Positions 7,931 through 33,351 of a stretch of 34,704 nucleotides of DNA are shown here, piece by piece. Each line of letters opens with the position of its first letter. The stretch's first letter is position 1. Both the position numbers and the translations under genes were made by a program. The DNA comes from an uncultured Sphingomonas sp. (GTDB lineage: Bacteria; Pseudomonadota; Alphaproteobacteria; Sphingomonadales; Sphingomonadaceae), in assembly GCA_913777325.1 (NCBI GenBank), contig CAJYSA010000081.1, positions 1 to 34,704 on the forward strand. The letters are read 5' to 3'. A model generated the notes under the pieces. The model saw nothing but the letters and a program-made list of their open reading frames with translations, was not told the DNA's origin and did no database searches.

Positions 7931-9232
7931 TCATCCCGCAGCGCGCTCGAGCCGCGCCGCGCCGTCATCGTGGTCGATCGTGCCCAGCTCGCCGCGCGCC
8001 CGCGCCCTGCGCCCATAGGCGAGTTCGAACAGCGGCGATGCCATCAGCGTGGTCGCGATCGCCATGAGGACCAGCATCGAGAACAGCGCCGGGCCGATGA
8101 TGCCGCGTGCCAGCCCGATGTTGATGATGATGAGCTCCATCAACCCGCGCGCGTTCATCAGCGCTCCGACGCCCATGGCAGTCGCATTATCCTGCCCGGT
8201 CAACCGCGCCGCCGCCCAGCAGGCGCCGCCCTTGGCCAGCATCGATGCGGCCAGCACCACCAGCGTCACCCCCAGCAGTGCCGGATCGGCGACGAGGCCG
8301 AGCTGCGTGTTCAATCCGGAGAAGGTGAAGAAGCACGGCAGCAGCAGCAGCACCGTCAGTGGCTCGAGCTGGCGCTTCAACCCCTCCGCCAGCACGCCGC
8401 GCGGCATCACCGCGCCCAGCAGGAAGCCGCCGAACACCGCGTGCATGCCCACCGCATCCATCGCGAACGCGGCCAGCAGGAACAGCATGAGCGCGATGCC
8501 GGTCTCGTTTTGCCCGATCCGTCCGGCGCGATCGGCACGTTCCCCCAGTGGACGCAACAGCCGTGGTCCAAGCCCGAGCACGACGAGCGCGAAGACGGTG
8601 GCACCGCCGATCGCCCGGATGGCCACGCCCGCCCCGTCGCCGAAGGTGGCGAGCACGACGGCCAGCACCGTCCACGCCCCCGCGTCATCGATCGCGCCCG
8701 ACGACAGCGACAGCGTGCCCAGCGGGGTGTTCGACAGTCCACGTTCGTGGATGATTCGCGCCAGCATCGGAAACGCGGTGATGGCGATGCAGGCGCCGGT
8801 GAACAGGATCGCCTGGGTGGCGGTGACCGTCGGGCCGAACAAGCCCGGGATCGATCGCAGCCATGGCGCGATCCCGATCGCCAGCACGAACGGCGCGATC
8901 ATGCCCGACAGCGACACAGCGGAGGCGCTACGCGCGTTGCTACGAAAATGATCCGCGCGGAAGCCGAGGCCCACGATGAACATGTACAGCCCGACGCCAA
9001 GTTGGGCGACCGCATAGAGCAGACCGCGCGTTTCCTTCGGAAACAGCATCGCCTGCCATTCCGGCGCGAGAAGCCCCAGCAGCGACGGGCCCAGCAGGAC
9101 ACCCGCGATCATCTCGCCAACGACGGGCGGCTGACCCAGGAACCGCTTCGCGAGCCAGCCGACGATGCGCGACACCGCGACGATCGCGAAGAGCTGCATA
9201 AAGAAAATGACGCTCAGCTGCGCCGGTGCCAT
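7931..9232 (-). CDS. CPA2-type cation/proton antiporter
   Basis: Polytopic inner-membrane protein of 433 residues. It begins with a helix leading into GQPPVVGEMIAGVLLGPSLLG, the hallmark of the KefB/NapA (CPA2, Na_H_Exchanger) family, and has about 12 hydrophobic segments through IIGPALFSMLVLMAIATTLM. It lacks the C-terminal TrkA-N/RCK nucleotide-binding domain of KefB/KefC, so it is a bare transport domain. ATG at 9232 is chosen because GGAGGGGG lies just upstream; the frame extends further but without a better start. It would exchange K+ or Na+ for H+; the ion is not readable. The gene is preceded on the same strand by an unrelated lipoprotein gene. Confidence 0.9.
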   Translation of the reverse strand: MAPAQLSVIFFMQLFAIVAVSRIVGWLAKRFLGQPPVVGEMIAGVLLGPSLLGLLAPEWQAMLFPKETRGLLYAVAQLGVGLYMFIVGLGFRADHFRSNARSASAVSLSGMIAPFVLAIGIAPWLRSIPGLFGPTVTATQAILFTGACIAITAFPMLARIIHERGLSNTPLGTLSLSSGAIDDAGAWTVLAVVLATFGDGAGVAIRAIGGATVFALVVLGLGPRLLRPLGERADRAGRIGQNETGIALMLFLLAAFAMDAVGMHAVFGGFLLGAVMPRGVLAEGLKRQLEPLTVLLLLPCFFTFSGLNTQLGLVADPALLGVTLVVLAASMLAKGGACWAAARLTGQDNATAMGVGALMNARGLMELIIINIGLARGIIGPALFSMLVLMAIATTLMASPLFELAYGRRARARGELGTIDHDDGAARLERAAG

Positions 9233-9300
9233 CGCGATTCCCCCTCCGTTTTCCGCACGATATCGTCGTGGGCAACCCGGCTCAACGTCGATATGGCGAC

Positions 9301-22820: not shown

Positions 22821-26114
<3,294 letters not shown>

Positions 26115-26235
26115 TCAGGCGCTTTGCCAAGCCGCCAGCCGGGCGTGTGAGCGGCTTGACGGCGGGCGCGCTTTCCGGTCCCCTCCGCCGATCCGGCCTG
26201 ACGGGGGTGCGGAACGGCGGGCGGAGCGACGATCC

Positions 26236-27546
26236 TTGAACACCACCTTGTTGCGCGGCGTGCTGGTCGGCGGACTGGCCGGATTGCTCTTCGGGTTCGA
26301 TACCGCGGTGATCGCGGGCACCACCGAGGGGATCCGCGCCGCCTTCGCGCTGGATGCCAGCGGCGTCGGCATCACCGTGTCGGCGGCCTTGTGGGGCACG
26401 CTGGCCGGGGCGTTGCTGGCCGGGCTGCCGGGCGACCGTTATGGCGCGCGCAATGCGTTGAAGGGGATCGCGCTTCTCTATTGCCTGTCGGGGCTGGGCT
26501 GTCTGGTGGCGTGGAGCTGGCCGGTGCTGATCGGCTTTCGGGTGATGGCCGGGCTGGCGGTGGGCGCGTCGTCGGTGCTGGCGCCGGTCTATCTCGCGGA
26601 GATCGCGCCCGCCGAGCGACGCGGGTTGATGGTGGGCACGTTCCAGCTCAACATCGTGCTCGGCATCCTCGCGGCCTATCTCAGCAACGCGATCGTCGGC
26701 GGCCTGGGGCTGGGCGCGGGCGACTGGCAGGTGAAACTGGGGATCAGCGCGGTGCCGGCGCTGCTGCTGCTCGCGATGATGTTCACGATACCCGACAGCC
26801 CGCGCTGGCTGGCGGCGAAGGGGCGCGAGGCGGAGGCGGACACGGTGCTGCGCCGGCTGGGGGTCGCCGATCCGCAGGACGAGCTGGACCGCTACGCGCG
26901 CGCCGCCGCCGCCGTCGCGGTGGGCCGCGCCCCACGTCTGTCCTGGGCGCGGCATCGCAAGCCGATCCTGCTGGCGTTCGCGGTCGCGGCGTTCAACCAG
27001 CTGTCGGGCATCAACGCCATCCTCTACTATCTCAACGATATCTTCGCGGCGGCGGGCTATGATGCGGTGTCGGCGGATCGGCAGGCGGTGACGATCGGGC
27101 TGTGCAACTTCGTGTTCACCGCGCTGGCGTTGCTGGTGATCGACCGGCTGGGGCGGCGCACGTTGCTGCTGATCGGATCGGTGGGGCTGACGCTCGCGTT
27201 GGGCGGGACCGCGGCGGTGTTCCTGACCGGGCAGGGACAGCAATATCTGCTCGCGCTGCTCATCGCGTTCATCGCCTTCTTCGCGTTCAGCCAGGGCGCG
27301 GTGATCTGGGTGTATATCAGCGAGATCTTTCCCACCGACGTGCGCGCGCGCGGGCAGGCGTTGGGATCGTCGACGCACTGGGCGATGGACGCGGTGATCG
27401 CGATGGCGTTCCCGGTGATCGCGGCGCACACGCGCGGGCTGCCGTTCGCGGTCTTCGCGGCGATGATGGCGCTGCAGTTCGTGATCGTGTGGATGTTCTT
27501 CCCCGAGACCAAGCGTCGCTCACTCGAGGCGATCGGGACGCAATGA
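26236..27546 (+). CDS. MFS sugar porter
   Basis: Inner-membrane sugar:H+ symporter of 436 residues with 12 predicted helices. Family signatures: GLLFGFDTAVIAGT in helix 1, the PDSPRWLAAKGR motif after helix 6, FNQLSGINAILYYLNDIF in helix 7, and the C-terminal FPETKRRSLEAI (PETKG-like). This is the XylE/GalP/glucose-porter family; the exact sugar cannot be read, though galactose or glucose released by the divergent beta-galactosidase would be sensible. The start is TTG at 26236 because it begins the first helix and follows GGAG by about ten bases; the open frame runs further upstream. A Fur box follows six bases after its stop. Confidence 0.92.
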   Translation: MNTTLLRGVLVGGLAGLLFGFDTAVIAGTTEGIRAAFALDASGVGITVSAALWGTLAGALLAGLPGDRYGARNALKGIALLYCLSGLGCLVAWSWPVLIGFRVMAGLAVGASSVLAPVYLAEIAPAERRGLMVGTFQLNIVLGILAAYLSNAIVGGLGLGAGDWQVKLGISAVPALLLLAMMFTIPDSPRWLAAKGREAEADTVLRRLGVADPQDELDRYARAAAAVAVGRAPRLSWARHRKPILLAFAVAAFNQLSGINAILYYLNDIFAAAGYDAVSADRQAVTIGLCNFVFTALALLVIDRLGRRTLLLIGSVGLTLALGGTAAVFLTGQGQQYLLALLIAFIAFFAFSQGAVIWVYISEIFPTDVRARGQALGSSTHWAMDAVIAMAFPVIAAHTRGLPFAVFAAMMALQFVIVWMFFPETKRRSLEAIGTQ

Positions 27547-27990: not shown

Positions 27991-28743
27991 TCAGTCGAGT
28001 GTCGGTTGCAGCTGGCGACTGATCGCGCGCACCGCGTCGCGCAGCAAGGCGCGGCATTCCGGCAGTGTCACCCGCGCCGCGCGCCCCGCGACATACGGCA
28101 CCGTCAGCGCGGCGCGCGCGGCATCGTGCTCCAGCACCGGGGCGGACAGATCGGTGATCCCGTCGAGCATCGGGCTGGGCGTGACCGCATCGCCCTCCAC
28201 TTTCAGCGCGTCGAGCGTCTGGATCAGTGCGGCGTCGGGATCGCCGCCGCCGGCACGCACGTCCTCAATCATCGCGGCGCGCACCGCGGCCGTCTGGAAG
28301 GCGAGGAGCACGCGCCCGGAATTCGACCGGTGCAGCGGGCGACGATAACCGACGCGCACCGCAAAGCCCGACAGGCCGGGTGCCTCCACCCCGGCGATCA
28401 CCACCATCTCCGCGCCGGAGGCGACCGCCAGGTGGCAGCTTTGTCCGGTCGCGCGCGCCAGCCCCTGCATCACCGGCAGCGCGGTGACGGTGAGGTCACG
28501 GACCGGGGGACGGCCCATGCCCAGCGCGAAGAGCCGGTTGGTCAGCCGATACCCGTCGTCATCGCGGGCGATATAGCGATGCTCCTCCAGCACCTGCAGC
28601 ATGCGGAAGATCTCGCCGACCGATCGGCCCAGCGCAAGCGAGATATCGGACATCGTCAGCGCGTGATCGGCGCTGGCCAGTAATTCGAGGATTTCCAGAC
28701 CCTTCTTGAGCGCAGGTGCCTGGTAGCGGGGGGCAGTCGTCAT
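27991..28743 (-). CDS. IclR family transcriptional regulator
   Basis: DNA-binding regulator of 250 residues. The N-terminal winged helix is ALKKGLEILELLASADHALTMSDISLALGRSVGEIFRMLQVLEEHRYI, followed by a ligand-binding domain with GQSCHLAVASGAEMVVIAGVE and VGYRRPLHRSNSGRVLLAF, as in IclR/KdgR proteins. Family members commonly sense sugar acids or aromatic acids and usually repress, sometimes activate, neighbouring genes. It is divergent from the sugar-oxidation operon with a 150-bp gap that carries a pair of direct repeats, so it is the obvious controller. Its effector is probably an intermediate of that pathway, such as a keto-deoxy sugar acid (inference). Confidence 0.92.
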   Translation of the reverse strand: MTTAPRYQAPALKKGLEILELLASADHALTMSDISLALGRSVGEIFRMLQVLEEHRYIARDDDGYRLTNRLFALGMGRPPVRDLTVTALPVMQGLARATGQSCHLAVASGAEMVVIAGVEAPGLSGFAVRVGYRRPLHRSNSGRVLLAFQTAAVRAAMIEDVRAGGGDPDAALIQTLDALKVEGDAVTPSPMLDGITDLSAPVLEHDAARAALTVPYVAGRAARVTLPECRALLRDAVRAISRQLQPTLD

Positions 28744-28894: not shown

Positions 28895-30199
28895 ATGATG
28901 GAGCATGTGGGCGCCGACGCGCGGGCACGATCCGGCCGCGACGCGGCGCGATTGCCACCGTTCGGCATGGGCACCGCCGCGATCGGCAACCTGTACCGCG
29001 CGATCGATGACGCCACCGCCGAGGCGACCGTCACCGCCGCGATCGATGCCGGGCTACGCTATTTCGACACGGCGCCGCATTACGGCTTCGGGCTGGCGGA
29101 GCGACGGCTGGGCGCGGCGTTGGCGCGGCTCGACCCGGCGGGCGAGTGCGCGATATCGACCAAGGTGGGGCGGCTGCTGGAGCCGACCGAGGCGACGGGC
29201 GAGCGGCACGGGTTCGTCGACGCCGATCCGTTCGAACCGGTGTTCGATTACAGCGCGGACGGCATTCGTCGCTCGTTCGATGCCAGCCTGACGCGATTGC
29301 GGCGTGACCGTGTCGAGGTGCTGCTGGCCCACGATCTGGGAACGCTGACGCATGGCGAGGACCATGCGCGCCACCTGCGCGACTTCCTGGACGGCGGCTA
29401 TGCCGCCATGGTCGCGTTGCGCGAAGCCGGCGCGGTCGGCGCGATCGGGATCGGCGTGAACGAGATCGCGGTGTGCGAGGAACTGCTCGACCACGTCGCA
29501 CTCGACGTGATCCTGCTGGCGGGGCGCTATACGTTGCTCGATCGCAGCGCGGTGGCGCTGCTCGATCGCTGCGCCGAACAGGGCGTTCGCGTCATCATCG
29601 GTGGCGCGTACAACAGCGGCATCCTGGCGCGCGATCCGGCGGAGGCCGATCCGGCGCAATCGCACTACGATTACGCCGCGCCGTCGCCCGCGCTGGTCGC
29701 GCGGACGCGTTCGCTGGCGAAGACCTGCGCGACGGCTGGCGTGCCCTTGCCGGCGGCGGCGCTGCACTTCCCGTTGCGGCATCCGGCGGTGGCATGCGTG
29801 CTGGCCGGGCTGGGTGATCCGGGCGAGGTCGCGGACATGCGTACCCGGATCGACACCCCCATTCCCGCCGCGCTGTGGGAGACGCTGGAGCGGCCCGCAC
29901 CGCAGCAGCTGATCCTGCTTCACCCCGAGGACAATGTGCTGATCTGCGTCGCGCCGATCCAGGCGGGCGATATCCTGACCGTCTCCGGCGGGACGATCCC
30001 GGCGCGCGAGGGCGTGACGGTGGGGCACAAGATCGCGCGCTATCCGCTGGCGGCGGGCGAGAAGGTCATCAAATATGGCGCGCCGATCGGATCGATGACC
30101 GATGCGGCGGTCGCCGGGCAATGGGTCCATATGCACAACATGAAGAGCGATTACATCGCCAGCCACACGCGCAGCACCGTGACGGAGCAGCGCGCATGA
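28895..30199 (+). CDS. Fusion: aldo/keto reductase (sugar 1-dehydrogenase) + UxaA-type SAF domain
   Basis: Single 434-residue protein of two parts. Residues about 20-330 form a complete aldo/keto reductase with the catalytic tetrad Asp58, Tyr63, Lys90 and His146, in the branch of L-fucose / D-threo-aldose 1-dehydrogenases that oxidise the sugar C1 with NAD(P)+. Residues about 338-420 are a SAF domain as in altronate-dehydratase small subunits (LHPEDNVLI, VGHKIA, IKYGAPIGSM, GQWVHMHN). No in-frame ATG or GTG lies at the joint that could start the SAF part alone. ATG at 28895 or 28898 follows AGGAAGG; GTG at 28871 is less likely. The stop overlaps the UxaA catalytic gene by 4 bp. The sugar (L-fucose, D-arabinose or L-galactose) is inferred from context. 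Confidence 0.88.
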   Translation: MMEHVGADARARSGRDAARLPPFGMGTAAIGNLYRAIDDATAEATVTAAIDAGLRYFDTAPHYGFGLAERRLGAALARLDPAGECAISTKVGRLLEPTEATGERHGFVDADPFEPVFDYSADGIRRSFDASLTRLRRDRVEVLLAHDLGTLTHGEDHARHLRDFLDGGYAAMVALREAGAVGAIGIGVNEIAVCEELLDHVALDVILLAGRYTLLDRSAVALLDRCAEQGVRVIIGGAYNSGILARDPAEADPAQSHYDYAAPSPALVARTRSLAKTCATAGVPLPAAALHFPLRHPAVACVLAGLGDPGEVADMRTRIDTPIPAALWETLERPAPQQLILLHPEDNVLICVAPIQAGDILTVSGGTIPAREGVTVGHKIARYPLAAGEKVIKYGAPIGSMTDAAVAGQWVHMHNMKSDYIASHTRSTVTEQRA

Positions 30200-31401
30200 T
30201 CCAGGCATGGCAGCGCGCCGACGGGCGCAAAGGCATCCGCAACACCGTCGCGGTCGCCTATCTGGTCGAATGCGCGCATCATGTGGCGCGCAAGATCGTC
30301 GACAAGGCCGACGACGCCGACGTCCATCTGATCGGCTTTCCCGGCTGCTATCCCAACGCCTATGCCGCGCGCGTGATGGAGGCGGTGACGACGCATCCGA
30401 ACGTCGGCGGCGTGGTGATCGTGTCGCTGGGCTGCGAGAGCTTCGACCGGGAGCGCTTACAGCAGGTGATCCGCGACAGCGGCCGCCCGGTCGAACTCTA
30501 CGTCATCCAGCAGACCGGCGGGACCGCGGCGACGATCGCGGCGGGGCTGGCGGCGGTCGAGCGCGTGAAGGCGCAGATCGCCGACGTGCCGCGCGTGCCG
30601 ATGGCGGTCGACGAACTGATCGTCGGCACGATCTGCGGCGGGTCGGACGGGACCAGCGGGATCACCGCCAATCCGGCGGTGGGCCGCGCGTTCGACCGGC
30701 TGGTGGCCGAGGGCGCGACCTGCATCTTCGAGGAGACCGGCGAGCTGGTCGGGTGCGAAGGGATCATGGCGGATCGCGCGCTGACGCCGGAACTGGGCGA
30801 GGAGATCATGGCCTGCGTCCGCAAGGCGGAGGAATATTACACGATCATGGGCTTCGGCAGCTTCGCACCCGGCAATGCCGAGGGCGGGCTGACGACGCAG
30901 GAAGAGAAGTCGATGGGCGCCTATTCCAAATCGGGATCGTCGCTGATCAGCGGGATCATCAAGCCCGGCGACGTGCCGCCGGCGGGCGGGCTGTACCTGC
31001 TGGACGTGGTGCCCGACGGCGAGCCGCGCTTCGGCTTCCCCAACATCTCCGACAATGCCGAGATCGTCGAGATGATCGCGTGCGGATGCCACCTGACGCT
31101 GTTCACCACCGGACGCGGATCGGTGGTCGGCTCGGCGATCGCGCCGGTCATCAAGATCTGCGCGAACCCGGAGACGGCAAAGCGGCTGGCGGCGGACATG
31201 GACATCAACGCGGGCCGCATCCTGGAAGGCGAAGCGACGCTGGACGAGGTCGGCACCGAGATCGTCGACACGATCATGGCGGTCGCCAGCGGACGGCCGA
31301 GCGTCTCCGAAGCGCTGGGGCATCGTGAATTCATCCTGACCTACAAGGCGTTCGACCCGGTGGGGCCGGCGTGCCTGCCGGTCGCTGCACGTAATCGTTG
31401 A
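30196..31401 (+). CDS. UxaA-family sugar acid dehydratase, large/catalytic part
   Basis: Cytoplasmic lyase of 401 residues matching the C-terminal catalytic region of altronate/galactarate dehydratases (UxaA, GarD) and SuyB. It starts MIQAWQRADGRKGIRNTV and holds conserved Cys-containing blocks GFPGCYPN, VSLGCES, GTICGGSDGTSGITANPAVG and MIACGCHLTLFTTGRGSVVG. The SAF domain normally at the N-terminus is absent here and sits instead at the end of the upstream reductase, whose stop overlaps this start (ATGA). Such enzymes use a divalent metal, often Fe2+, to dehydrate sugar acids to 2-keto-3-deoxy acids; in this operon the substrate is probably L-fuconate or a stereochemical relative (inference). 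Confidence 0.9.
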   Translation: MIQAWQRADGRKGIRNTVAVAYLVECAHHVARKIVDKADDADVHLIGFPGCYPNAYAARVMEAVTTHPNVGGVVIVSLGCESFDRERLQQVIRDSGRPVELYVIQQTGGTAATIAAGLAAVERVKAQIADVPRVPMAVDELIVGTICGGSDGTSGITANPAVGRAFDRLVAEGATCIFEETGELVGCEGIMADRALTPELGEEIMACVRKAEEYYTIMGFGSFAPGNAEGGLTTQEEKSMGAYSKSGSSLISGIIKPGDVPPAGGLYLLDVVPDGEPRFGFPNISDNAEIVEMIACGCHLTLFTTGRGSVVGSAIAPVIKICANPETAKRLAADMDINAGRILEGEATLDEVGTEIVDTIMAVASGRPSVSEALGHREFILTYKAFDPVGPACLPVAARNR

Positions 31402-31416
31402 ATGAGGGGTCTATAA

Positions 31417-32148
31417 ATGGAAGGCCGGTTGAAGGGGAAGGTCGCGCTGGTCACGGCGGCGGCCAACGGCATCGGGCGCGCAACCGCGCAGCGCTACCTC
31501 GCCGAGGGCGCGCGCGTGATCGCGACCGATATCGATGCGGCTGCACTGGCCGGACTCGAGGGCTGCGAGCATCATGCACTGGACGTCACCGACGCCGAGC
31601 AGGCCCGCGCGCTGGTGGCCGAGATCGGGCGCGTCGACGTGCTGGCGAACATCGCGGGCATCGTCCATGCGGGCACGATCCTGGACCTGACCGATAAGGA
31701 ATGGGAGCAGGCGGTCGCGATCAACATGACGGGCATGATCCGCACGATCCGCGCGGTGCTGCCGGGGATGCTGGCGGCGGGCGGCGGTGCGATCGTCAAC
31801 ATGTCGTCGATCGCAAGCTCGGTGAAGGGCATCCCCAATCGCTTCGCCTATACCGCCACCAAGGCCGGGGTGATCGGCATCACCAAATCGGTGGCGGCCG
31901 ATTTCGTCGGGCAGGGCATCCGCTGCAACGCGATCTGCCCGGGGACGGTCGACACGCCGTCGCTGCAGCAGCGGCTGCGCGATACCGGCGACTATGAGGC
32001 GGCGCAGCAGGCGTTCGTCGCCCGACAGCCGATGGGGCGGCTGGGCCGTGCGGAAGAGATTGCGGCGCTGGCCACCTATCTGGCCAGCGACGAGGCGGCG
32101 TTCACGACCGGCGCGGTGCATGTCATCGACGGCGGCTGGGTCAATTGA
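31417..32148 (+). CDS. SDR family dehydrogenase, probable 2-keto-3-deoxy-L-fuconate dehydrogenase
   Basis: Classical short-chain dehydrogenase of 243 residues. Cofactor loop TAAANGIG (residues 13-20), acidic residues in ATDID at the end of the second strand (Asp38) pointing to NAD+ rather than NADP+, NIAG (78-81), and the active site with Ser about 134, Tyr145 and Lys149 (YTATK). The C-terminus VIDGGWVN is usual. In the Xanthomonas/Burkholderia-type L-fucose route an SDR oxidises C4 of 2-keto-3-deoxy-L-fuconate; gene order supports that role. GAGGGG lies seven bases before the ATG; 15 bp separate it from the dehydratase gene. Confidence 0.9.
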   Translation: MEGRLKGKVALVTAAANGIGRATAQRYLAEGARVIATDIDAAALAGLEGCEHHALDVTDAEQARALVAEIGRVDVLANIAGIVHAGTILDLTDKEWEQAVAINMTGMIRTIRAVLPGMLAAGGGAIVNMSSIASSVKGIPNRFAYTATKAGVIGITKSVAADFVGQGIRCNAICPGTVDTPSLQQRLRDTGDYEAAQQAFVARQPMGRLGRAEEIAALATYLASDEAAFTTGAVHVIDGGWVN

Positions 32149-32158
32149 GGGAAAGCGC

Positions 32159-33004
32159 ATGAAGCTGGTACGATACGGGGCGCGCGGCGCCGAGAAGCCG
32201 GGGATGGTCGATGCGGACGGCAACGTGCGCGACCTGTCGGCGCATGTGGCGGATATCGCGGGCACGACGCTGGGCGACGCCGAACTGGCCAAGCTGGCGA
32301 CGATCGATCCGGCGACGCTGCCGGTGGTGCAGGTCGATCGCTATGGCCCGTGCGTCGGCGCGGTCGGCAAGTTCCTGTGCATCGGCCTGAACTATTCGGA
32401 TCACGCCGCCGAGACCGGCGCGACCGTGCCGAGCGAGCCGGTGATCTTCACCAAGGCGACCAGCGCGATCGTCGGCCCCGACGACCATGTCGAAATCCCC
32501 AAGGGGTCGACCAAGACCGACTGGGAAGTCGAGCTGGGCATCGTGATCGGCAAGGAGGCGCGTTACGTCGATGAGACCGACGCGGCGGACCATATCGCGG
32601 GCTATTGCGTCATCAACGACGTGTCCGAGCGCGCCTTCCAGCTCGAGCGGCAGGGGACGTGGGACAAGGGCAAGGGATGCGACACGTTCGGCCCGATCGG
32701 CCCGTGGCTGGTGACGCGCGACGAGATCGCCGATCCGACCGCCTTGTCGATGTGGCTGGAGGTGAACGGCCACCGCTATCAGGACGGGTCGACCTCGACG
32801 ATGGTCTACAAGCCGGCGTTCCTGGTCAGCTATGTCAGCCAGTTCATGTCGCTCCAGCCCGGCGACGTCATCTCCACCGGCACCCCGCCGGGCGTCGGCA
32901 TGGGGCAGAAGCCGCCGGTGTTCCTGAAGGCGGGCGACGTGATGGAACTGGGCATCGAAGGGCTGGGGCAGCAGCGCCAGACCGTGACGGCCTACGGCCA
33001 ATGA
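32159..33004 (+). CDS. Fumarylacetoacetate hydrolase-family enzyme, probable diketo-deoxy acid hydrolase
   Basis: Metal-dependent hydrolase of 281 residues. The FAH core starts at FLCIGLNYSDHAAETG and has the metal ligands Glu123 and Glu125 in DWEVELGIVIG and Asp154 in NDVSERAFQ, then GKGCDTFGPIGPW and the C-terminal STGTPPGVGMG. In non-phosphorylative L-fucose or L-rhamnose pathways this family cleaves 2,4-diketo-3-deoxy acids to pyruvate and lactate, which suits its place after the SDR. ATG at 32159 has GAGGGAAA just upstream. Its stop overlaps the mutarotase start by 4 bp. Confidence 0.9.
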   Translation: MKLVRYGARGAEKPGMVDADGNVRDLSAHVADIAGTTLGDAELAKLATIDPATLPVVQVDRYGPCVGAVGKFLCIGLNYSDHAAETGATVPSEPVIFTKATSAIVGPDDHVEIPKGSTKTDWEVELGIVIGKEARYVDETDAADHIAGYCVINDVSERAFQLERQGTWDKGKGCDTFGPIGPWLVTRDEIADPTALSMWLEVNGHRYQDGSTSTMVYKPAFLVSYVSQFMSLQPGDVISTGTPPGVGMGQKPPVFLKAGDVMELGIEGLGQQRQTVTAYGQ

Positions 33005-33351
33005 CCGAGCGCCACGTCCTGCTGGTCGATATCGCCGACGAGGCGGAGGCGACCGCGGCCTATGAGGCGTGGCACGCGGCGGGCGCGGTGCCCGCGCCGG
33101 TCGTCGCCAGCATCCGCGCCGCCGGGATCACCGCGATGGATATCTATCGCACCGGCGGGCGGCTGGTGATGGTGATGGAGACCGATGCCAGCTTCGACGC
33201 GGCAGCGAAGGCCGCCGCGGATGCCGCTGACCCCGACGTGCAGGCGTGGGAGGCGAAGATGGATGCCGTCCAGCGCCGCCTGCCCTGGGCGGAGCCGGGC
33301 GTGAAGTGGGTCGCGGCGCGGCGGATCTTCTCGCTGAGCGAGCAGCCGTAA
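33001..33351 (+). CDS. L-rhamnose/L-fucose mutarotase family (RhaM-like)
   Basis: Small protein of 116 residues of the RhaM ferredoxin-like fold. Hallmarks are YEAWHAAG near residue 20 with the catalytic-type His, GITAMDIYRTGGRLVMVMETD, and a C-terminal Trp-rich part (WEAKMDAVQRRLPWAEPGVKW). These enzymes equilibrate sugar anomers, which speeds the C1 oxidation by the first operon enzyme. Its presence is one of the stronger hints that a 6-deoxyhexose such as L-fucose is the pathway's sugar. ATG overlaps the hydrolase stop; last gene of the operon, ended by a hairpin at 33364-33394. Confidence 0.87.
   Translation: MTERHVLLVDIADEAEATAAYEAWHAAGAVPAPVVASIRAAGITAMDIYRTGGRLVMVMETDASFDAAAKAAADAADPDVQAWEAKMDAVQRRLPWAEPGVKWVAARRIFSLSEQP

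Follow-up and report, generated by a model that had tools for sequence, protein, structure and literature searches.

An aldo/keto reductase fused in frame to the SAF small subunit of a UxaA-type dehydratase in Sphingomonas and Sphingobium

In the genome of an uncultured Sphingomonas sp. (contig CAJYSA010000081.1 of assembly GCA_913777325.1; the whole stretch of 34,704 nucleotides analysed is called the window here), we found one gene encoding an aldo/keto reductase (AKR) that runs on, in the same reading frame, into the SAF small subunit of a UxaA-type sugar-acid dehydratase. The fusion is real and conserved: there is one open frame, both frame and sequence are conserved among relatives, the fused genes are nearly monophyletic, and no other SAF domain of the family was found in the genome. 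We think it likely that this single polypeptide joins an L-sugar 1-dehydrogenase, acting most probably on L-fucose, to a SAF small subunit paired with the separately encoded large part (UxaA-large), which would tether both enzymes to each other, and that it arose from overlapping genes brought into register; the substrate, the pathway and the association of SAF with UxaA-large are read from neighbouring genes and protein families. The enzyme families and the type of pathway are known, the arrangement is new. It provides a natural case in which the complete enzyme of a first step carries a piece of the enzyme of a later step, the rest of which is encoded separately. Should the pieces associate as predicted, both activities would be physically linked, and the question of a sugar-acid metabolon would become testable with two genes.

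The fused frame and its partner gene

The frame at 28895-30199 on the forward strand (Table 1) comprises 434 codons and a stop, with no internal stop in its translation. A preliminary description, made from the sequence alone, had proposed an in-frame fusion of AKR to SAF, and both halves find their match. Residues 24-329 reach 120.4 bits against Pfam Aldo_ket_red (cut-off 24), and the C-terminal 100 residues, searched alone, score above the Pfam SAF cut-off of 21 bits, at 23.1. This C-terminal piece also matches an altronate hydrolase N-terminal domain (3k3s, E 2.6e-13) and, weakly, GarD (6u7l, E 0.019). The Asp-Tyr-Lys-His tetrad defines the aldo/keto reductase superfamily, and its residues are all present where they had been reported (D58, Y63, K90 and H146), each being nearly invariant (at least 90%) in an alignment of 31 rows. 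According to Foldseek, L-galactose dehydrogenases are the closest solved structures to the model of the AKR part. In the AlphaFold prediction of the fusion this part has a mean pLDDT of 77, the SAF part lies mostly below 55 and has no confident placement; the model of UxaA-large is poor (46 pLDDT). When the whole fusion protein was searched in Pfam at E 1e-3, Aldo_ket_red was the sole domain listed and SAF was not. An annotation reading 'aldo/keto reductase' would conceal the subunit missing from the dehydratase.

Table 1. Features of the fusion gene and its surroundings (window coordinates)
Feature	Position	Strand	Remarks
Sugar porter (MFS)	26044..27546	+	start possibly further in
IclR-family regulator, divergent	27991..28743	-	
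AKR-SAF fusion protein	28895..30199	+	434 aa; upstream, frame open to GTG 28871; ATG at 28895 and 28898
Aldo/keto reductase domain	28964..29881	+	Pfam residues 24-329; phmmer PDB 7lh6, 9w6y; Foldseek 9w6y E 8.4e-22
Joint	29876..29926	+	Trp328 codon to Pro codon of LHPEDN, 48 nt apart; no in-frame ATG/GTG/TTG
SAF domain, small-subunit part of UxaA-type dehydratase	29906..30148	+	3k3s match; Pfam SAF 23.1 bits
UxaA large part	30196..31401	+	GD_AH_second and GD_AH_C, without SAF; C26, C51, C80, C147 align with Cys of GarD 6u7l
ATGA overlap, UxaA-large start / fusion stop	30196..30199	+	
SDR dehydrogenase, candidate 2-keto-3-deoxy sugar acid 4-dehydrogenase by context	31417..32148	+	
FAH-family hydrolase	32159..33004	+	best NCBIfam model 2,4-didehydro-3-deoxy-L-rhamnonate hydrolase
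RhaM-family sugar mutarotase	33001..33351	+	

The SAF frame holds no ATG, GTG or TTG from 29840 to 29935, in line with the claim that neither an ATG nor a GTG at the joint would allow separate translation. The last ATG upstream of the joint in this frame (29837) lies within the reductase, the first ATG, GTG or TTG beyond it is a GTG at 29936 within the first SAF strand, and CTG codons near the joint stand at 29909 and 29915. The joint was also re-read for a stop or a frameshift, and it is open in the window as well as in relatives. A search of the window's genome at E 1e-8 gave one SAF match, the fusion itself, and no further SAF of the family appeared in a whole-protein search at E 1e-3, the two additional places both being AKR only. 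If UxaA-large needs SAF, the fusion is its sole known source in this genome.

The catalytic part of the dehydratase is indeed a coupled gene of its own, as had been described, and aligns with GarD 6u7l at E 5.4e-44. The UxaA/GarD domain set of SAF, GD_AH_second and GD_AH_C is complete, but split over two polypeptides: SAF does not share a chain with the large part as in GarD 6u7l, sitting on the dehydrogenase chain, and at the gene level small and large parts have separate chains, as in a heteromeric L-fuconate dehydratase. Neither protein reaches the cut-off of 730.85 bits for galactarate dehydratase (NCBIfam TIGR03248), the large part scoring 188.9 bits and the fusion 28 bits. Four conserved Cys residues have been proposed as iron ligands in the UxaA/GarD dehydratase superfamily (PMC6336799); C26, C51, C80 and C147 of UxaA-large, each aligned with a Cys of GarD, may correspond to Cys134, Cys173, Cys208 and Cys276 of that work. 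By analogy to the single-chain relatives, SAF would pair with UxaA-large, and the context suggests putative dehydratase activity on L-fuconate.

Spread, origin and retention of the fusion

Relatives were surveyed by searching 110 loci plus the window, 111 sequences in all, with the individual domains, and 109 of them exceeded the AKR limit of 150 bits (L002 and L003 fell below it). SAF is fused to AKR in 32 of these rows, forms a separate adjacent gene in 20 and is not found nearby in 57. As some genomes are present in two collections, the 32 fused rows amount to 21 distinct sequences, to which two more can be added (L170, on a plasmid of Sphingobium sp. V4, and L192, in genome G783), so that the database search for the Aldo_ket_red-SAF architecture, advised in the preliminary description, returned 23 distinct fused sequences in total. 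Relatives with the two parts always in separate genes, which would have counted against the fusion, were looked for, and fused and unfused relatives both exist. All fused records bearing names belong to Sphingomonas or Sphingobium. Matches to AKR and SAF in one piece occurred in 3 of 61 genomes of relatives, at least 13 of 295 of the genus, 3 of 397 of the family and 3 of 396 of the order, these samples overlapping and each including the window's genome. The class (385 genomes) and the phylum (398) were searched with the SAF piece alone as query; among the 56 loci obtained, SAF and the large part share one frame in 31, SAF stands alone in 18, one is the window and six have a long upstream run. 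One of these six is the lactonase-SAF frame described below; the remaining five, together with five more frames from L196-L199 and L202, showed no partner domain in Pfam, where SAF was the only match and two of the ten gave nothing at all.

Several observations from this survey stand by themselves. Sphingomonas sp. BAUL-RG-20F-R05-02 contains the fused gene in two copies (L014 and L017). Four close AKR relatives (L020, L021, L068, L069) have neither UxaA nor SAF in the fetched stretch, and in L020 and L021 the AKR is adjoined by SDR, mutarotase, lactonase-type and FucP-like genes. In the AKR tree, the AKR of a record entitled Bacillus sp. 2B10 (L023) is placed with that of Sphingomonas hankookensis, pointing to an assembly that is mislabelled or contaminated. 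In a related AKR stretch (G008:C2:3152316-3153259) the match crosses two TGA codons, and this stretch may represent a gene that has decayed.

In the unfused relatives dehydrogenase, SAF and large part are separate genes, and in the ten unfused joints anchored by our joint-distance script the SAF start overlaps the AKR stop. An annotated plasmid carries the unfused homologues in the order fucP, SDR, amidohydrolase, AKR, UxaA small, UxaA large, with overlaps of 4 bases each between the last three. The fusion would have originated from such adjacent, overlapping dehydrogenase and SAF genes, the frames of which were brought into register, and the start codon of SAF would have decayed afterwards in some lineages. 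Relatives keep the stages of such a series (overlapping genes, fused genes with a start, fused genes without one) and could be useful for studies on the fixation of gene fusions.

In the 41-row tree of concatenated AKR, SAF and UxaA-large, one clade (91/94) consists of the 21 fused rows and a single unfused one, L022 from Sphingobium scionense; likewise, the AKR tree (98 rows) unites the fused rows and one unfused row (SH-aLRT 91). Within the Sphingobium part of the concatenated tree L022 is basal (part 100/100, its six fused Sphingobium rows 90/90), and two changes are needed: either a single fusion that was later reversed, or two separate ones. Three changes are required by the UxaA-large tree: the fused rows fall into two clades, making two origins possible, an unfused group stands beside the Sphingomonas fused rows (82/82) and L022 is nested among the fused Sphingobium rows (97/78). 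In L022 itself (8902-9273 of the locus) AKR and SAF lie in different frames within an otherwise fused clade; either the fusion was reversed there, or it arose twice, or the sequence is in error, and the locus shows the fusion to be dispensable or reversible.

The length of the joint between its two anchors varies from 48 to 93 nt. All 21 fused rows and 10 of the 20 separate rows could be anchored, three of the latter (L081, L090, L094) on Phe instead of Trp, for which the frame is valid but the distance is not. Mapped on the concatenated tree (21 fused rows and L022), the joint underwent at least eight length changes and one change of frame, the one in L022; zero or one frame changes in eight has a p of 0.0026, assuming that by chance one indel in three keeps the frame. 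Simple pairwise counting in eight sequences of the window's clade gave dN/dS values of 0.05 for the first SAF strand, 0.16 for the whole SAF, 0.29 for the joint (16 codons) and 0.17 for the AKR core; purifying selection on the first SAF strand past the joint is strong. No ATG, GTG or TTG occurs between the anchors in 9 of the 21 fused sequences, the window included; within the window's nine-row clade this applies to seven, the other two (L006, L058) having a GTG. Given a conserved SAF strand and the lack of an own start in seven of the eight sequences, translation from the AKR start is the simplest explanation.

To a neutral history of the fusion we give about the same weight as to its opposite: SAF would simply be carried on the C-terminus of the dehydrogenase, both parts working and nothing being channelled, in a gene that arose by overlap and was kept by drift. 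Such a history is compatible with the proposed architecture and opposed to any benefit. It accords with AKR, SAF, UxaA-large, SDR and mutarotase recurring in fused and unfused loci alike, with the unfused Sphingobium member (L022) and with one other genome, in which SAF is joined to a different, lactonase-like upstream gene; against it stand the loss of the SAF start in several lineages and a frame that was disturbed by just one of at least eight length changes. These two observations show that the fused form is used, but not that it is beneficial.

In that other genome (G253), a lactonase-like Amidohydro_2 enzyme and SAF share one open frame (L195:7298-8398, that is, G253:C2:362297-363397), with scores of 142.5 bits for Amidohydro_2 and 30.5 bits for SAF. 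The best NCBIfam model of the enzyme is L-fucono-1,5-lactonase (212 bits, below the cut-off of 400), and UxaA-large, SDR, mutarotase and a FucP-like gene follow downstream. Among the 56 genomes searched with this protein only G253 has such a frame, and a Met kept directly before SAF makes separate translation possible. It is an independent fusion of a like small subunit to another enzyme, suggesting that being joined to the enzyme encoded directly upstream is either tolerated by SAF or of advantage to it. A bolder reading, which we consider rather unlikely, would see in SAF a transferable docking handle, whose fusion makes the upstream enzyme (the dehydrogenase or, elsewhere, the lactonase-like one) an obligatory dehydratase subunit in a sugar-oxidising metabolon that passes lactone or acid on directly.

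Pathway, substrate and products of the fused gene

The window's operon runs AKR-SAF, UxaA-large, SDR, FAH hydrolase and RhaM-type mutarotase, the FAH protein scoring 426.7 bits against NF053535 (below the cut-off of 500). A FAH gene is nearby in only 6 of 19 fused loci, all of them in the window's subclade, and both of these FAH findings count against the L-fucose reading. A fucP-like gene lies near all 21 unfused loci and 11 of 19 fused ones (32 of 40 altogether), from which we conclude that the pathway is probably non-phosphorylating L-fucose degradation, as the neighbouring genes and their families suggest. Fused loci with no fucP-like gene in the fetched stretch are those of the window's subclade (the window, L004-L007 and L018), L009 and L012; the subclade has a sugar porter instead, although none was seen in L006, where there is little upstream sequence. 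Two FucP-like genes were tested, one from a fused Sphingobium locus and one from the unfused plasmid locus, and passed the cut-off of 280.4 bits for fucP (TIGR00885) with 352.2 and 369.7 bits; the pair of this origin did not pass the stricter NF007524. In the window the sugar porter is adjoined by a glycoside hydrolase family 2 enzyme, beta-galactosidase-like (22821-26069, reverse strand), and Pfam found no fucosidase among the 25 ORFs of the window that were scanned.

L-fucose is 6-deoxy-L-galactose. The operon's fit to route 3 of L-fucose degradation (see below), its FucP-like neighbours in other loci and the L-galactose dehydrogenase fold make L-fucose the likeliest substrate of the AKR. 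Sugar oxidation as the first step of the pathway, as claimed at the outset, is likely too, in view of the AKR family, this fold and the operon context. The AKR would use NAD(P) to oxidise C1 of an L-sugar, most likely L-fucose, and the resulting lactone would open spontaneously or through a lactonase encoded elsewhere. UxaA-large and the fusion's SAF, as a heteromeric L-fuconate dehydratase of the UxaA type, would then dehydrate the acid, and SAF, by pairing with the separately made large part, would tether dehydrogenase to dehydratase.

The window's operon contains no lactonase gene. Two Amidohydro_2 genes were found elsewhere in the genome, one of them beside an IclR-type and a FucP-like gene; a second sugar cluster of this genome (L193, G000:C25) comprises a FucP-like gene, an IclR regulator, a lactonase-like amidohydrolase and a mannitol-type dehydrogenase. 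A lactonase-type amidohydrolase is present in the fetched stretch of 5 of the 19 fused loci and of 12 of the 21 unfused ones (Fisher p 0.06), in a count whose rows share ancestry and differ in flank length and in which one of the 12 (L184) has the gene about 5 kb from the AKR. A role of the fusion as a replacement of the lactonase is not established by this difference.

The same architecture could serve another sugar, such as L-galactose, D-arabinose or an L-rhamnose-like acid, a possibility to which we attach distinctly less weight than to L-fucose. It would suit the L-galactose dehydrogenases as structural neighbours of the AKR, the L-rhamnonate-pathway hydrolase as best model of the FAH gene, the sugar porter as the window's transporter in a subclade with no fucP nearby, and the membership of D-arabinonate and (unpublished) L-galactonate dehydratases in the UxaA/GarD superfamily (PMC6336799); the fucP-like genes near the large majority of loci, with both tested ones recognised by TIGR00885, speak for L-fucose.

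Two products of the gene, the fusion by read-through and a free SAF by internal initiation at the joint, seem improbable to us, even though several members have an in-frame start there and may therefore make free SAF as well. An ATG is found at the joint of L008, L011, L012, L013, L015, L016 and L170, and directly past the Trp in L019, and a GTG in L006, L010, L014, L058 and L065; the Met at the position of the SAF start of L022 is kept in six of the seven fused Sphingobium loci (L011, L012, L013, L015, L016 and L170, not L009). Ribosome-site pairing was calculated for 21 start-like codons in 18 loci (L058, L060, L063 and L065 were left out); the scan began a little farther upstream, which brought in a TTG preceding the Trp in L005 and L018. 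Strong pairing precedes only two of the 21, the GTG of L006 (-9.3 kcal/mol) and the ATG of L016 (-9.2 kcal/mol), these alone passing the 5th percentile of the background (-6.4, mean -3.1 kcal/mol; the starts of UxaA-large have a mean of -7.0 kcal/mol), and the nine sequences with no start-like codon between the anchors argue against a second product in general. Nothing was found in favour of an error in sequencing or assembly, or of a frame open by chance; both are ruled out for practical purposes by the 23 distinct fused sequences, the codon-level selection across the joint seen in dN/dS and the retention of its frame.

Comparison with known systems

The preliminary description knew of no enzyme with this architecture, and we, too, found no fusion of a dehydrogenase to a dehydratase small subunit in the open-access literature, though an earlier description is possible in work on members of the altronate dehydratase family that serve L-fucose pathways. 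The preliminary description held up as regards the fused architecture, the lack of a start codon at the joint and a likely step of sugar oxidation, but the split UxaA is not new in itself, as split dehydratases of this type are already in print as statements on gene context or annotation (PMC6336799, PMC12566272). A heteromeric L-fuconate dehydratase of COG2721 has been named for Paraburkholderia mimosarum (A19U_RS0100650/0655) on the basis of gene context and unpublished data, along with heteromeric SuyAB (PMC6336799). Like the enzyme proposed here it is a UxaA-type sugar-acid dehydratase said to be heteromeric, acting on L-fuconate, and unlike it, no fused dehydrogenase is reported in the accessible part of that source; the likeness is one of description, not of sequence (PMC6336799). 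The L-fucose locus of Campylobacter jejuni also has an altronate hydrolase split into N-terminal and C-terminal genes (cj0482-cj0483), whereas its fucose dehydrogenase is the short-chain Cj0485 (gene cj0485), with no fusion reported in the part of the source available, and here, too, the enzymes are likened by description, not by sequence (PMC12566272).

Route 3 of non-phosphorylating L-fucose degradation comprises FucM, FucA, FucB, FucC, FucF and FucG (PMC11199699). The window's operon offers candidate equivalents of its mutarotase, dehydrogenase, dehydratase, SDR and FAH hydrolase; the operon differs in having no lactonase gene and in a dehydrogenase that is an AKR bearing the small subunit of the dehydratase (PMC11199699). 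GarD 6u7l has SAF and the large part on one chain, whereas here SAF is found on another enzyme. The L-galactose dehydrogenases 9w6y, 7ezl and 7lh6 share the AKR fold with the window's protein at 23-28% identity, but their aligned chains of 286-327 residues have no reported SAF, which the fusion possesses. In the lactonase-SAF frame of G253 a SAF small subunit likewise follows an upstream enzyme in frame with UxaA-large next door, the differences being the Amidohydro_2 partner and the Met left at its joint.
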